Positions 16,682-21,474 of a stretch of DNA of 64,000 nucleotides are shown here, one piece after another. The notes beneath the pieces are model-generated. The model was not told the origin of the DNA. It ran no database searches and saw nothing but the letters and a program-made list of their open reading frames with translations. Origin of the DNA: Pseudomonas fluorescens (GTDB taxonomy: Bacteria > Pseudomonadota > Gammaproteobacteria > Pseudomonadales > Pseudomonadaceae); the NCBI RefSeq assembly GCF_000730425.1, contig NZ_CP008896.1, positions 372,001 through 436,000 on the forward strand, written 5' to 3'. The position numbers and the translations under genes were made by a program. Every line of letters starts with the position of its first letter. The stretch's first letter is position 1.

Positions 16682-18484
16682 ATGCGATACAACACTGGCA
16701 ACCCCGTAGAGCCCGATGGCTCCAGCGATCCACGCGATCTCTTTGACAACGCAGGAAATATCGACCTCTTCGCCAATGGTTCAAACCCTTCATATCTGGA
16801 CCGCAAGGGGGTCAGCAGGAAGTCCATTCGCGGAATGGAACAGGACTTCTCCGACTTCCTGGCCAACTCCGGTTTTGAGCCGGTGCACCTTGTGTATGTC
16901 GATGGCCAGCCACTCACCGTAAGCAGACCGACCCAACTGATTGATCGGGACGGTCGGACCTACAGAGTTAAGTTCCCGGCCGCCTTCCCGGTAACGCTCA
17001 CAGGTACCTGGGCAACCGACCTGACCAAGCTGGTTGAGATTGACGATCAAGCCTTGCGGCAGGACCTGGCTTCAGCCGAAGGCTACGACCAGATCGGCGC
17101 AACACTACCGACCGGCGTCGTATCCACCGTCAAAGGCTTCTTCAACTGGATCCTCGATCGAATCACGCTGAGCACTTCGGGCTCGGCAAGCATCGTGGCC
17201 GCCGTGGCGAAGGGTGAGAAGGTCGTTATTAAAAACGGGGTGCATTACATGTTCGCCCCTGCGATTTGCGATTATGGAGTGGAGCCTATAGTTGGATTTG
17301 CCGGTCACCCTTCAAAAAGATATGACATTTCGGGCGAAACTCCGGGTGGAACAATTCTCAGCAACCAGCATTCTGATAACGCTCTAAGATTGATTGGGAG
17401 CTATCCGGTAACTCAGAATTTCGGTGGGTTTGACGCGGTCGGAAATCTTACGGTTGTCGGGCCAAATGTTACTACCCCGAATACCGATAATACTGGTGGG
17501 TCCGGTATATTTGTGCAGTCCAAGGCATATACAAAAGTTTATAACTATGCTGCTATTAATCTCCGTATAGGCCTCCATTTTGATGGGGTACTTACCAGCT
17601 CCGTCGAAGACGCTACTATTTCTGGATGTTATGAAGGTTTGATTTTTGAGGACACAAATACCACGTCCGGGCCAAATGCTATAAATCTGCGTCGTGTTAA
17701 AGTTGGGGAATGTCCTTTTCAGGGGGGTAGAATTGAGCTGGCCTCATCATTCCAAGCTGATAACCTTACCGTTGAAGGTTGCGGTACCATGGGCGGTATT
17801 GGGGTCGGCCTATTATGGCAAAGCAAGGCCGGCTCGCTTGGGGTTAATGTAAATCTAAACGCCACCTACAATGAGCTTAACGCAGGACCAGCTGATACAT
17901 ACATTTACCATGTATCCTCTCAGCCAATGGTTTTTAATATCAATGGAGGTTTATATCACCGCTCAACTCCTAACAGATATGTAGAAACTAACTTACTTGT
18001 TCGCAGGGAAGTAGGTGCAGGGAATGTAACCGTCAAAGTTAGCGGTGTTACATTCTTGAGCAGTTTTGGTTATGTTTCATCTGGTAGTCGACCTTATTGG
18101 GATGTTGGGCCTGGGTGCGAGGTGATATGGGACGAGTCATGCATTTTCTCAGATCTGGTTGCAATGAATTACTGGATCTGCCTTGATCGTTCCTATGAGT
18201 TCGTTGTTAGTGCGGCTGGCGATATTTTGGCTGGGCCCGAAGGGTTCTTCTGTACTAAGGTTTCAACCGGTAAATACCGTTTCGGGAGAAACGCCGGCAA
18301 GGCCGAGTTTGCAAAGTTCGCCACTGACTACACAGTTACCGGCACCTCAGAATACCCAGGTTCAAACCTCTATTTGAGCTATAGGCAGGAACAGTTTTTC
18401 GAAGTGTCGATAGACAACGGGAGCACCTTAATTGACGCTCCATTCTCAGTAATAGTTAAGCGTGTCAAGGGGTATTACAGCTAA
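16682..18484 (+). CDS. tailspike/tail fibre, beta-helix type receptor-binding protein
   Basis: 600 residues, with GGAGAAAAC before ATG. Residues about 1-130 form a GC-rich, probably tail-attachment domain (NTGNPVEPDGSSDPRDLFDNA, QLIDRDGRTYRVKFPA). The rest is beta-rich with repeated short strands (DNLTVEGCG, NLRRVKVGEC, ATISGCYEGLIFED), as in right-handed beta-helix tailspikes that cleave or bind O-antigen. From about 17220 the DNA becomes visibly AT-rich, indicating a swapped receptor module. No catalytic residues can be named. The adjacent polymerase gene suggests linked O-antigen specificity. Confidence 0.78.
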   Translation: MRYNTGNPVEPDGSSDPRDLFDNAGNIDLFANGSNPSYLDRKGVSRKSIRGMEQDFSDFLANSGFEPVHLVYVDGQPLTVSRPTQLIDRDGRTYRVKFPAAFPVTLTGTWATDLTKLVEIDDQALRQDLASAEGYDQIGATLPTGVVSTVKGFFNWILDRITLSTSGSASIVAAVAKGEKVVIKNGVHYMFAPAICDYGVEPIVGFAGHPSKRYDISGETPGGTILSNQHSDNALRLIGSYPVTQNFGGFDAVGNLTVVGPNVTTPNTDNTGGSGIFVQSKAYTKVYNYAAINLRIGLHFDGVLTSSVEDATISGCYEGLIFEDTNTTSGPNAINLRRVKVGECPFQGGRIELASSFQADNLTVEGCGTMGGIGVGLLWQSKAGSLGVNVNLNATYNELNAGPADTYIYHVSSQPMVFNINGGLYHRSTPNRYVETNLLVRREVGAGNVTVKVSGVTFLSSFGYVSSGSRPYWDVGPGCEVIWDESCIFSDLVAMNYWICLDRSYEFVVSAAGDILAGPEGFFCTKVSTGKYRFGRNAGKAEFAKFATDYTVTGTSEYPGSNLYLSYRQEQFFEVSIDNGSTLIDAPFSVIVKRVKGYYS

Positions 18485-18509
18485 TTTTTACAGATTTTCG
18501 TTAACAGAG

Positions 18510-18541
18510 ACCCGCCTACGCCTACCTGGATTTGGCGGGTT
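18510..18541 (+). terminator. terminator-like hairpin after tailspike
   Basis: ACCCGCC pairs with GGCGGGT across a loop of about 17 nt, followed by TTCATC. The T run is weak, so termination is likely only partial. Confidence 0.4.
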
Positions 18542-18573
18542 TCATCTCGTCGAGGCCCTCGATATGGTCTGCG

Positions 18574-18602
18574 TTAAAAATAATAAAACAATGTGCTAGA
18601 AT
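18574..18602 (+). promoter_or_regulatory. candidate sigma70 promoter for the polymerase-like gene
   Basis: TTAAAA (18574-18579), a 17-bp AT-rich spacer and TAGAAT (18597-18602), 29 bp before ATG 18632. A private promoter would allow expression in the lysogen, independent of late phage transcription. Confidence 0.45.
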
Positions 18603-18631
18603 CTAAGCGTCTAAATTGGAATCTAGAATTT

Positions 18632-19795
18632 ATGAGATATCTTTTTGTAAATCCGTTCTTCATATTTGTAGTAAGTATTTCATCTTCGTTTATTCTTTAT
18701 AGAATGGGGCTTTCTGGTTTTTATGATGGTGCTTTTTCTTCTGCTGATTATATGATGTGTTTTGTTTTGTTTGTGTCATTAATAGCGAGCATAGGATTTC
18801 ATAAGTTTGTTAAGAGAAGGCTTGCTAGTCAAGATGATGCGGATAGGTTGCCAAAATATAATTTATTTTTTCTGGTTTTGATAAGTATTTCTTTTTTTGT
18901 TTTGGAGATTTTGCATGCTGGTGGCATTCCAATAATATACATTATGCGCGGGGTTAGCTATGACTATACTCAGTTTGGCATACCTACGCTGCATGTTGCG
19001 TTTCTTGGGTATTACTCTGTTGCTGCGGTTGTTAGCTATGAAAGATATATATCGATTAAGGAAAGGAAGTATTTGATTCCTGTGGCGCTGGCTATTATTT
19101 ATAATGTTTGTATTGTAAATCGTGGCGCTTTGCTGATAACCCTTGCAAGCTTGTTGTTTGTTTATATGTATAGCTCAAGGAAAAGAGTTAAGGCTTTTCT
19201 TGTGATGCTTATTATGCTTTTCTGCATAACAATAGTTTTTGGGTATATTGGCGACAAGAGAATGGTTTCGTCAGGTTATGAGAACTCTGACGCAATTTAT
19301 GATATTGGTCGAGCTGACCCAGCATTCCGAGAGTTGCCTACCGGTTTTTTTTGGGTTTATATATATGCGTCATCAACCTATGCAAACCTAGTAAGTCAGG
19401 AATCAGAGGGGAATATAAACACTGGCGGGATAATGGATTTTATTAATTTCTCAATTCTTCCTGACTTTATTTCAAAGCATACAATCAAAGAGGGGGAGTC
19501 GTTTAATTTAAAGTTGATAGCTCCTGAGCTTACTGTCGGGACTGCGTTTGGTCGCGCCTTTGTTATTCTTGGGTATGCGGGGATTGTTGCGCTTGCGTTT
19601 TGGTATTCTGTTGTGGTTTGGCTGGTTGTCTTGGTTAATAGGAATAAGAAATTAATTTCTGCGTGCTCGATTCTTTGCTCTGTGTCTCTGTTTATGTCAT
19701 TTGATAATATGCTGGTATTTGCTAGTTTTGTTTTGCAAATGATTTTTTTGAGTTTGTATAGTCGTCTTAGATTTGGTCGCTATAGGCTGCTTTAG
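18632..19795 (+). CDS. O-antigen/oligosaccharide repeat-unit polymerase-like membrane protein (Wzy-like)
   Basis: 387 residues from ATG 18632. A GTG at 18593 is in frame but lies inside the likely -10 box. About ten hydrophobic segments span the protein (e.g. FVNPFFIFVVSISSSFILY, FFLVLISISFFVLEI, IALAFWYSVVVWLVVLV-like), with a long hydrophilic loop in the second half (about residues 210-290), the topology of Wzy polymerases. Such enzymes join O-antigen repeat units in the periplasm. Its DNA is strikingly AT-rich beside GC-rich phage genes, showing recent transfer. Prophage D3 of P. aeruginosa carries a Wzy that changes O-antigen linkage, so serotype conversion is the likely role (inference). 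Confidence 0.68.
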   Translation: MRYLFVNPFFIFVVSISSSFILYRMGLSGFYDGAFSSADYMMCFVLFVSLIASIGFHKFVKRRLASQDDADRLPKYNLFFLVLISISFFVLEILHAGGIPIIYIMRGVSYDYTQFGIPTLHVAFLGYYSVAAVVSYERYISIKERKYLIPVALAIIYNVCIVNRGALLITLASLLFVYMYSSRKRVKAFLVMLIMLFCITIVFGYIGDKRMVSSGYENSDAIYDIGRADPAFRELPTGFFWVYIYASSTYANLVSQESEGNINTGGIMDFINFSILPDFISKHTIKEGESFNLKLIAPELTVGTAFGRAFVILGYAGIVALAFWYSVVVWLVVLVNRNKKLISACSILCSVSLFMSFDNMLVFASFVLQMIFLSLYSRLRFGRYRLL

Positions 19796-19841
19796 GAGGG
19801 TGGTGTTTTATATTTGGCGCCATCTTTCGAGGGCGCCAGTT

Positions 19842-19976
19842 TTAGTTGTAGTTCGCTATGTATGCAGCGGCGGAAACTATGAAAAGCACTATGCATATAA
19901 TGATTGTGGCCTTTTTGCTTGGTATTTGATCCTCTGGTGGGTCGTTGAACATTGGGTCTCTTTCGTATTTTTCCAT
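19842..19976 (-). CDS. 44-residue single-helix membrane protein, antisense to phage late genes
   Basis: The minus-strand frame starts at ATG 19976 with GAGGGG six bases upstream and encodes 44 residues: a charged, proline-containing N-terminus (MEKYERDPMFNDPPEDQIPS) and a hydrophobic helix (ATIIICIVLFIVSAAAYIA). A good sigma70 promoter lies upstream on the same strand (20023-20052). It sits between the polymerase-like gene and the endolysin, facing away from late transcription, as prophage cargo genes expressed in lysogens often do. A role as inhibitor of the host polymerase, like the small hydrophobic Iap of phage D3, is possible; superinfection exclusion is another. No family is recognised. 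Confidence 0.62.
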   Translation of the reverse strand: MEKYERDPMFNDPPEDQIPSKKATIIICIVLFIVSAAAYIANYN

Positions 19977-20022
19977 GTCTTTCCCCTCGGGTGGAAATAC
20001 TCAGGCTTCGGTTGGTTGGCGC

Positions 20023-20052
20023 ATTCTACAAGCGAACGCTGGTCTGTGTCAG
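20023..20052 (-). promoter_or_regulatory. sigma70-like promoter for the 44-residue protein
   Basis: Read on the minus strand: CTGACA (20052-20047), 18-bp spacer, TAGAAT (20028-20023), 46 bp before ATG 19976. Confidence 0.55.
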
Positions 20053-20076
20053 CGATGATACTCAAAGAAGCTTTAC

Positions 20077-20104
20077 GCCCGGTCATCGATCCGGGCTTTT
20101 TTTT
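20077..20104 (+). terminator. intrinsic terminator upstream of the endolysin gene
   Basis: GCCCGG-TCATCGAT-CCGGGC followed by eight T. Fifteen bases later the endolysin ATG begins. Confidence 0.75.
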
Positions 20105-20118
20105 GCACGGAGAACAAC

Positions 20119-20670
20119 ATGCCGATCACCGAGCAGCAGTTGCTGCAGATCCTCCCCAACGCCGGCCGCAATGCCGGCGTTTTTGCATCTGCGCTGAACC
20201 TAGCCATGGACCGGTACCAGATCAACACCAGGCTTCGGATGGCGGCTTTCATCGCCCAAGTGGGCCATGAGTCGGGACAGTTCCGATACGTGCGCGAGTT
20301 GGGCGGCGACCAGTACCTGAGCAAGTACGATACCGGCACCCTGGCCAAGCGCCTTGGAAATACTCCAGAGGCTGACGGTGACGGGCAGAAGTACCGCGGG
20401 CGTGGCCTGATCCAGATCACTGGGCGCGACAACTACCTGGCGTGCAGTAAGGCGCTGTTCGGTGACGATCGTCTTCTGCGCACCCCTGAACTGCTGGAGC
20501 AGGCAGAGTGGGCGGCCAAGTCTGCGGCCTGGTTCTGGAACTCCCGCGATCTGAACAAGCTGGCTGACTCTGGGTCGTTCGAGATGATCACGCGGCGAAT
20601 TAATGGGGGAGTCAACGGCCTGGCCGAGCGCGTTTCCTTCTATAACACTGCGTTGAAGGTGCTGGCATGA
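20119..20670 (+). CDS. phage endolysin, glycoside hydrolase family 19
   Basis: 183 residues with GGAGAACAAC before ATG. The GH19 (chitinase/lysozyme-like) fold is indicated by MAAFIAQVGHESGQF (E51 the likely catalytic acid), a second Glu at about 60 (VREL), YRGRGLIQITGRDNY, and the C-terminal FEMITRRINGGVNGLAER. Phage members cut the glycan strand of peptidoglycan at lysis. There is no signal peptide, so a holin should release it, yet none is evident in the window. Its stop overlaps the spanin start (ATGA). Confidence 0.92.
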   Translation: MPITEQQLLQILPNAGRNAGVFASALNLAMDRYQINTRLRMAAFIAQVGHESGQFRYVRELGGDQYLSKYDTGTLAKRLGNTPEADGDGQKYRGRGLIQITGRDNYLACSKALFGDDRLLRTPELLEQAEWAAKSAAWFWNSRDLNKLADSGSFEMITRRINGGVNGLAERVSFYNTALKVLA

Positions 20671-21179
20671 ACGCTATCTGGCTGCGGATCCTTCCTTATA
20701 TAGCGGCGGTGTCCGTCGTCCTGGCCGGTCTGTTCATGGCCTACAGTCACGGCAAGTCGGTCACCGATGCTGAGTGGCAGGCAAAGTGGAACGCCCGGGA
20801 TACACGGGACGCCGCAGCGAAGACCCTCAACGAATCCACCGAGCGCGCCAAAGAGCAGGCCCGGCAACAGACAATCAACAAGGTGATCCAGGATGGCCAG
20901 AAAGTCATTGACCAAGCATTTGCTGATGCTGCCGCTTCTCGCGATGATCGCAGCTTGCGGGACGCAGCCGACGAAACCGCCGGTCGAGTCGCAGCCAGTC
21001 AAGCCGGCGGCCATTCCTGCACTGCCGCCGCAAGCGCGGCAGCTACCCGTGCCGTCATGGTGCTTGCCGACGTGCTCAAGCGCGCTGACCAGCGAGCGGG
21101 TGATCTGGCAGGATATGCTGACCAAAGCCACGGCCGGGGAGTAACCTGCGAGCAGGCGTATGACAGCTTGGGGAAATAG
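20667..21179 (+). CDS. inner-membrane spanin, Rz-like (DUF2514-type)
   Basis: 170 residues, overlapping the endolysin stop by ATGA. One N-terminal membrane helix (about 8-27, ILPYIAAVSVVLAGLFMAY) is followed by a long charged helical periplasmic part (about 35-150). This is the topology of i-spanins, which pair with an outer-membrane lipoprotein to fuse the two membranes at the end of lysis. A second gene, 20893-21144, lies inside it in another frame. Confidence 0.8.
   Translation: MNAIWLRILPYIAAVSVVLAGLFMAYSHGKSVTDAEWQAKWNARDTRDAAAKTLNESTERAKEQARQQTINKVIQDGQKVIDQAFADAAASRDDRSLRDAADETAGRVAASQAGGHSCTAAASAAATRAVMVLADVLKRADQRAGDLAGYADQSHGRGVTCEQAYDSLGK
20893..21144 (+). CDS. outer-membrane spanin lipoprotein, Rz1-like, embedded in Rz
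   Basis: 83 residues in the +1 frame relative to the enclosing Rz-like gene. It has a lysine-containing N-terminus, hydrophobic core and lipobox LLAMIAAC (cleavage before Cys22), followed by a proline-rich short mature region (TQPTKPPVESQPVKPAAIP). These are the defining features of Rz1 lipoproteins. The lipobox-plus-proline pattern in an alternative frame would be improbable by chance. It works with the Rz-like protein. Confidence 0.8.
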   Translation: MARKSLTKHLLMLPLLAMIAACGTQPTKPPVESQPVKPAAIPALPPQARQLPVPSWCLPTCSSALTSERVIWQDMLTKATAGE

Positions 21180-21349: not shown

Positions 21350-21397
21350 CGGATTGCAAATCCGCCTACGCCGGTTCGATTCCGACCTCGGCCTCCA
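21350..21397 (+). other. prophage attachment site: 3' 48 nt of tRNA-Cys
   Basis: The anticodon arm with GCA (CGGATTGCAAATCCG), variable region, T arm (GCCGGTTCGATTCCGAC) and acceptor 3' strand ending GCCTCCA match the 3' half of tRNA-Cys. No matching D arm or 5' acceptor strand (it would need about GGCCGAG) lies upstream, so this is a partial copy created by integration. The complete tRNA-Cys should be at the left prophage end, outside the window. Confidence 0.75.
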
Positions 21398-21405
21398 CTC
21401 TTAGA

Positions 21406-21437
21406 AACCCCGTAGATTAACGTCTACGGGGTTTTTT
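21406..21437 (+). terminator. strong intrinsic terminator after the att site
   Basis: AACCCCGTAGA-TTAACG-TCTACGGGGTT followed by TTTT, an 11-bp perfect stem. It is probably the original terminator of the tRNA-Cys transcription unit, displaced from it by the prophage. Confidence 0.85.
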
Positions 21438-21474
21438 ATTGCCTGCTGGAAAGTGCTGGCGTTCCGAAACTATC

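Follow-up and report, generated by a model that had tools for sequence, protein, structure and literature searches.

A Wzy-family polymerase gene in the seroconversion slot of a D3-like Pseudomonas fluorescens prophage, next to a gene for a candidate inhibitor peptide

The window analyzed here is a 64,000-nucleotide stretch of the single-contig 6.06-Mb genome of Pseudomonas fluorescens (G000:C1:372001-436000), and it carries, between the tailspike and the endolysin genes of a prophage, a gene for a 387-amino-acid (aa) protein, hereafter wzy. An earlier sequence-only reading had described it as an AT-rich multi-pass membrane protein gene lying directly after a prophage tailspike in an otherwise GC-rich late operon, and the open reading frame (ORF), the spike, the tail operon and the prophage context were all confirmed. 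The spike-to-lysis slot contains the following features.

16682..18484, plus strand: tailspike gene, 600 aa, with a D3-type N-terminal anchor (about residues 1-140) and a swappable beta-strand-rich receptor-binding part.
18507..18543, plus strand: hairpin 3′ of the spike gene, folding energy -22.5 kcal/mol (z -4.8), equalled by 0 of 200 shuffles.
18574..18602, plus strand: sigma-70-like promoter-like site of wzy, TTAAAA-17-TAGAAT, extended -10 TGcTAGAAT, 9/12 with TG.
18632..19795, plus strand: wzy, predicted oligosaccharide repeat-unit polymerase, 387 aa, ATG at 18632, stop at 19795, GC 0.369.
19816..19838, no strand assigned: hairpin between the convergent wzy and 44-aa genes, -16.3 kcal/mol and z -6.3 on the minus strand, z -1.9 on the plus strand.
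19842..19976, minus strand: gene for a 44-aa peptide with a single transmembrane (TM) segment, candidate Iap-like polymerase inhibitor, convergent with wzy, Shine-Dalgarno sequence gagggg, one hydrophobic helix.
20023..20052, minus strand: conversion-slot promoter motif CTGACAC..GCGTTCGCTTGTAGAAT, the best promoter-like site of the region (10/12).
20119..20670, plus strand: endolysin gene, right border of the slot (PF00182, phrog_181).

The GC content was 0.609 in the endolysin gene, 0.594 in gene J, 0.576 in the N-terminal part of the spike, 0.465 in its C-terminal part and 0.369 in wzy (0.348 at third codon positions, GC3), and the lowest-GC window of the 64-kb profile was 18501-19500. The C-terminal part of the spike, which had been called equally AT-rich, is AT-shifted but does not reach the level of wzy. 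The start Met of wzy is the same in most of its homologues, and the stable hairpin at 18507-18543 would favor a separate wzy transcript.

The identity of the product was analyzed with profile and structure searches. Residues 5-374 matched TIGR04370 (NCBIfam, oligosaccharide repeat-unit polymerase) with 66 bits against a cutoff of 40, and PF01901 (Pfam, O_anti_polymase) was narrowly missed (23.8 bits against a gathering cutoff of 24.2, E 3.4e-5), so that the protein was not assigned there. No match was observed in a PHROG search at E 0.01, nor to Wzy_C at E up to 1. The many hydrophobic segments coincided with long helices of a confident AlphaFold2 model (mean pLDDT 85.7, pTM 0.87), as expected for a multi-pass membrane protein. 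When this model was compared with the PDB by Foldseek, WaaL ranked best (E 0.12, probability 0.91) and no entry fell below 0.001. VIA-align, which covers only Foldseek-ranked entries, gave 10.0 for FtsW, 9.8 over 249 residues for WaaL, 8.1-9.1 for other FtsW/RodA-type chains and 5.4 for the next row, scores that helical bundles may also reach without kinship. A sequence search against solved structures returned four matches, the best with E 0.29, and a viral structure library returned nothing under E 0.001. These results tentatively support a WaaL/SEDS-like fold; an excerpt of PMC12004945 places Wzy in the SEDS family.

A protein search returned 39 homologues from 7998 scored candidates: the closest is 97% identical and has 9 member sequences, four further ones are at 67-71%, and the other 34 are at 26-48%. 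Among them are proteins from Escherichia, Scandinavium and Acinetobacter that are named O-antigen or repeat-unit polymerase in their sources. No match was found in phage records, and pattern-based scans of IMG/VR gave no confirmed relative; of 398 Pseudomonas species genomes, only the one it comes from carried the gene. Relatives were also observed at six loci of named genomes (23-38%) and on three plasmids (25-26%). One of them, a Serratia protein (38%), sits after polysaccharide-type genes: six of the seven neighbors scanned had a Pfam match (a Wzc-type GNVR/AAA kinase, a bacterial sugar transferase, three glycosyltransferases and a pyruvyl transferase), and the seventh, of 504 aa and without a Pfam match, reads as a flippase. 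The Wzy identity first proposed from the letters alone is supported by a curated hidden Markov model above cutoff, WaaL and FtsW/RodA as nearest folds and a homologue in a polysaccharide locus. These results support, at the family level, that the 387-aa protein is a Wzy-family polymerase, and a polymerizing activity is predicted.

The position of the gene is that of the seroconversion genes of phage D3. The J protein of the prophage is 55% identical to that of phage PS-1 and about 45% to that of D3, and because the prophage is D3-like the comparison with D3 is direct. In D3 the order is spike, iap (minus), oac (plus), wzy-beta (minus), HNH, endolysin; in phi297 the spike is followed by wzy-beta (minus), in PAJU2 by an O-acetylase gene, and in PS-1 there is no gene between the tail fiber gene and the next gene, at the endolysin position. 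The parallel with D3 that had been drawn is therefore closer than claimed, since the prophage is D3-like and its gene occupies the D3 seroconversion slot. In the window as in the D3 unit (iap, oac, wzy-beta), the spike and lysis genes of a D3-like phage flank one polymerase gene and, on the minus strand, the gene of a small single-TM peptide. In the window, however, the polymerase belongs to TIGR04370 rather than Wzy_C and is encoded on the plus strand, and the peptide is unrelated in sequence to Iap. The O-acetylase gene of the D3 module, absent in phi297, has no counterpart among the ORFs of 18485-20118. No significant similarity was observed between the two polymerases (BLAST E 0.48, profile -3.9 bits), so homology of the window Wzy to D3 Wzy-beta was not found by sequence, and a kinship at the fold level is possible.

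TIGR04370-type polymerases were also observed in other phages. The Pseudomonas aeruginosa phages BUCT566, vB_Pae_BR153a and VB_PaD_phPA-G carry one on the J strand downstream of J, which BUCT566 annotates as 'oligosaccharide repeat unit polymerase'. In two IMG/VR loci, L164 and L167, such a gene follows the spike in the same slot and orientation as in the window, but its product has no BLAST match to the window Wzy at E up to 1 and no small TM peptide was found with it. A profile scan of slot ORFs with the window Wzy alignment gave no match, which indicates that L164 and L167 share the NCBIfam family yet fall beyond the profile of the window Wzy.

The 44-aa peptide, which the earlier reading had not mentioned, was then compared with Iap. 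Slots were scanned for hydrophobic ORFs of 20-70 aa preceded by a ribosome site, and this recovered Iap in each of the five Iap slots tested (D3, phi297 and loci L139, L096 and L144), with two extra ORFs in phi297 and none in the other four. The same scan of the window slot returned the 44-aa peptide and one ORF inside wzy, leaving the peptide as the sole candidate outside wzy, and in L164, L167 and L159 it returned ORFs within the big gene only. As observed in the protein database, the identical peptide is encoded on 8 contigs, the longest of 41,051 bases, so it occurs beyond this chromosome; these copies, together with one 82%-identical homologue conserved over its full length, point to a maintained gene. 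A search of 50,697 phage records with E up to 1 gave no match. A profile of the five Iap peptides gave 1.0 bit (rank 165 of 501 with shuffles), and homology to Iap is therefore unsupported. A mimicry of the host Wzz was likewise unsupported, in a test that is powerless because D3 Iap fails it too (886 of 1000 shuffles as good). By position and size, the peptide is a candidate analogue of D3 Iap.

The motif upstream of the peptide gene is common to genomes G295 and G142, where it immediately precedes the O-acetylase gene of the slot. Five of 398 genomes have the full motif, one copy each (0 in the backward control), and eight IMG/VR contigs have its 17-base core. Thirteen places were inspected (the window, L050, L055, L174-L176, L177, L178-L181, L187 and L188), and Pfam was run on eight proteins from seven of them. 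Seven precede an acyltransferase gene (four types, two of them repeated), two a family-2 glycosyltransferase gene, and one (L187:4848-7228, minus strand, genome G004) a two-gene unit, in which the gene of an unassigned 385-aa protein comes before that of a relative of D3 Wzy-beta (35.6%); one precedes a 2OG-Fe(II) oxygenase gene (L180:138-962) and one the 44-aa peptide gene of the window, while L177 lacks the -35 part and is not such a slot. Since the motif mostly precedes sugar-modifying genes in the sister loci, the 44-aa peptide occupies the position of a conversion gene.

In order to place the slot among its relatives, 114 loci with a J match were surveyed: the window, five named phages, 25 loci from the other 23 J-positive genomes of the 398, and 83 IMG/VR loci, which include the best 80 of one search; three short loci were omitted and two contigs were counted twice. 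Forty-three loci were removed: 34 had no ORF of spike size within 1.5 kb (cases at contig ends among them), and nine had less than 1.5 kb after the spike. Of the remaining 71, 65 share the spike N-terminus. Their slots contained an O-acetylase (23), Wzy-beta plus O-acetylase (4), Wzy-beta (3), a TIGR04370 Wzy (3; the window, L164 and L167), a Gtr (1), another multi-TM gene (1), another AT-rich gene (9) or none (21), where acetylase and Wzy-beta were labeled by BLAST at 1e-3 and L164, L167 and L087 separately. A recognized surface-sugar modifier was thus present in 34 of the 65 slots and missing from 31, and after removal of near-identical spikes of the same class in 28 of 56. Among phage records, the L164-type Wzy was observed in the three named P. 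aeruginosa phages and a Wzy-beta relative in 12 records, duplicates included.

It had also been proposed that spike and polymerase are swapped together. Twenty-six pairs among the 56 loci resembled each other in the spike end (50% or more over 60% or more), and in 11 of them the modifier was similar too (50% or more); 0.42 such pairs were expected, and 0 of 2000 permutations did as well, in a permutation that ignores relatedness. Ten of the 11 pairs come from one five-locus group with the D3-type cassette, so few independent events are involved. In L144, J is merely 45% identical to that of D3, yet the spike end (98%), O-acetylase (97%), Wzy-beta (92%) and iap (90%) are nearly those of D3, and L139 and L096 (J about 46%) are further cases of a linked cassette. 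Counter-cases were also observed: L164 and L167 have Wzy proteins 83% alike and unrelated spike ends; L051 and L087 have identical J (100%) and spike ends 74% alike, but an O-acetylase in one and a Gtr in the other; and L064 combines a spike end of the D3 type (58-61%) with a lack of Wzy-beta. A strict linkage as a rule is rejected by these cases; what stands is one cassette group, and the spike-modifier linkage in the relatives is real but loose. Two slots of this survey are described on their own. In L087:12900-15253 (minus strand), a D3-like contig, a GtrII-type protein and a family-2 glycosyltransferase replace the O-acetylase, and L159:13631-14869 (plus strand; 412 aa, 37% GC, nine helices, directly after the spike, no Pfam or NCBIfam match) may encode another, unclassified Wzy.

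The spike itself is modular. PHROG tail families match about residues 1-140; residues 11-139 are 53.8% identical to PMG1/phi_D3 and residues 148-599 are 61% identical to podophage PfAn1. Relatives of the receptor-binding part (145-600) are joined to several kinds of anchor, and in six database proteins the anchor is shared at 94-100% with ends only 48-51% alike. The AlphaFold2 model (pLDDT 78.6, poor up to about residue 170) matched the Dettilon, Sf6 and phi297 tailspikes by Foldseek (E 9e-10 to 3e-6, probability 1.00), with TM-scores of merely 0.33-0.40. The target of the spike would be the O-antigen of this host.

An O-antigen-type cluster was located in the host at about C1:5895653-5912666, with Wzz, a nucleotidyl transferase, a dTDP-sugar epimerase, FdtA and DegT-type genes, glycosyltransferases, an epimerase, a family-4 transferase, a PF01943 flippase, an AT3-SGNH acyltransferase and a PF02719 dehydratase. 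It also encodes a multi-TM candidate Wzy of 395 aa (L071:3243-4430), which scores 16.3 bits with Wzy_C and so stays below the cutoff, and a 475-aa neighbor without a Pfam match. The prophage Wzy is the only TIGR04370 match in the whole genome. The lysogen probably has a polymerase of its own that competes with the prophage Wzy, and this would be the place where an inhibitor is needed.

Taken together, we assign a probability of roughly 0.65 to the reading that the locus is a D3-type seroconversion module built from unrelated parts, in which a Wzy-type O-antigen polymerase is lysogenic-conversion cargo of a D3-like prophage and is accompanied by a peptide that damps the host Wzy. According to this model, the phage would enter through recognition of the host O-antigen by the spike; in the lysogen, wzy would be transcribed from its own promoter, and its product would join the host lipid-linked O-units by a linkage different from that made by the host Wzy. 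The 44-aa membrane peptide, expressed from the slot promoter motif, would reduce or redirect the host Wzy, as Iap does in D3, and the new O-antigen would no longer fit the spike, so that the lysogen would resist superinfection by the same phage type. A private promoter-like sequence, as had been claimed, was found for wzy at 18574-18602, but sigma-70-like sites in 18400-20200 were not in excess of chance (6 against 4.3 +/- 2.2 in shuffles). A terminator scan, which requires a T run, picked up neither hairpin. Furthermore, the Serratia homologue scored 25.4 bits with TIGR04370, below the family cutoff. The last two points lowered our estimate from 0.68. As to the peptide, we propose tentatively, and at less than even odds, that it is a new class of phage Wzy inhibitor, unrelated to Iap, convergent with a TIGR04370 polymerase and served by a promoter reserved for conversion genes; inhibitor-plus-polymerase seroconversion would then have evolved at least twice at this slot from unrelated parts.

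Other explanations were considered. The 44-aa peptide might be an independent superinfection-exclusion or other membrane moron rather than a polymerase inhibitor, with wzy still seroconverting. Small membrane exclusion peptides exist in temperate phages, and the oxygenase gene of L180 indicates that not all motif genes are obvious sugar enzymes, but the small single-TM peptide of the Wzy slots in D3, phi297, L139, L096 and L144 is Iap or Iap-like, and we consider this explanation rather unlikely. A plain additional or replacement polymerase for the O-antigen or another Wzy-dependent glycan, with the host enzyme not silenced and the peptide unrelated to it, would agree with the lack of similarity to Iap, with the L164 and L167 slots, where a TIGR04370 Wzy was observed and no small peptide could be detected beside it, and with D3, in which Wzy-beta polymerizes even with Wzy-alpha present, as stated in an excerpt of PMC4815439. 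The peptide gene, however, is convergent with wzy in the slot and lies behind a motif that mostly precedes sugar-modifying genes, which makes this explanation unlikely. That the gene is decayed or silent cargo without effect in this host could be suggested by its AT-rich foreign composition and its restriction to one of the 398 genomes, but it is improbable, because the ORF is intact, the 97% and 67-71% identical proteins exist and the peptide homologue is conserved in full length. Finally, an O-antigen ligase (WaaL) or SEDS-type relative in place of a polymerase is very improbable: these are the closest solved folds, but TIGR04370 is above cutoff, Wzy_C is unmatched, the Serratia homologue lies within a glycan locus, and two separate host proteins score above the Wzy_C cutoff.

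The prophage at tRNA-Cys spans about 53 kb, and its remaining features are as follows.

G000:C1:340440-340513: tRNA-Cys (ARAGORN).
G000:C1:340554-341627: integrase gene (PF00589).
20667..21179, plus strand: Rz-like spanin gene (PF10721, phrog_312).
21350..21446, no strand assigned: attR-like repeat of the tRNA-Cys 3′ region, 86% over 100 nt, other copy from G000:C1:340466.

The same prophage has two endolysin/spanin cassettes (43% and 30% identical), one at G000:C1:366467-367832 (L069:14467-15832), well upstream of the tail genes, and one at window positions 20119-21179, at the right end.

Prophages that combine a spike with an alternative Wzy are already known. In Acinetobacter baumannii, the prophage polymerases Wzy1Ph and Wzy2Ph and a tailspike depolymerase form a comparable pair for which an excerpt of PMC13228068 proposes a like protection logic; there the polymer is a capsule rather than an O-antigen, the families are EpsG and Wzy_C, and in that excerpt an inhibitor is merely suggested. 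Salmonella phage epsilon15, likened here by description only (PMC4815439, excerpt), has a beta-polymerase and an inhibitor of the alpha-polymerase, in another host. The present module was not found in the literature searched, which is no proof of its being unpublished; three elements appear to be new, namely the occurrence of this polymerase in such a setting, a peptide unrelated to Iap, and a promoter motif common to conversion slots.

These results point to the D3 seroconversion slot as a place where Pseudomonas prophages exchange genes that modify the O-antigen, and the promoter motif, present in several of them, is usable as a signature for such cargo. The 44-aa peptide can be tested as a possible second type of natural peptide that blocks Wzy, and small peptides that block O-antigen polymerases are of interest as tools to study surface polysaccharide synthesis.
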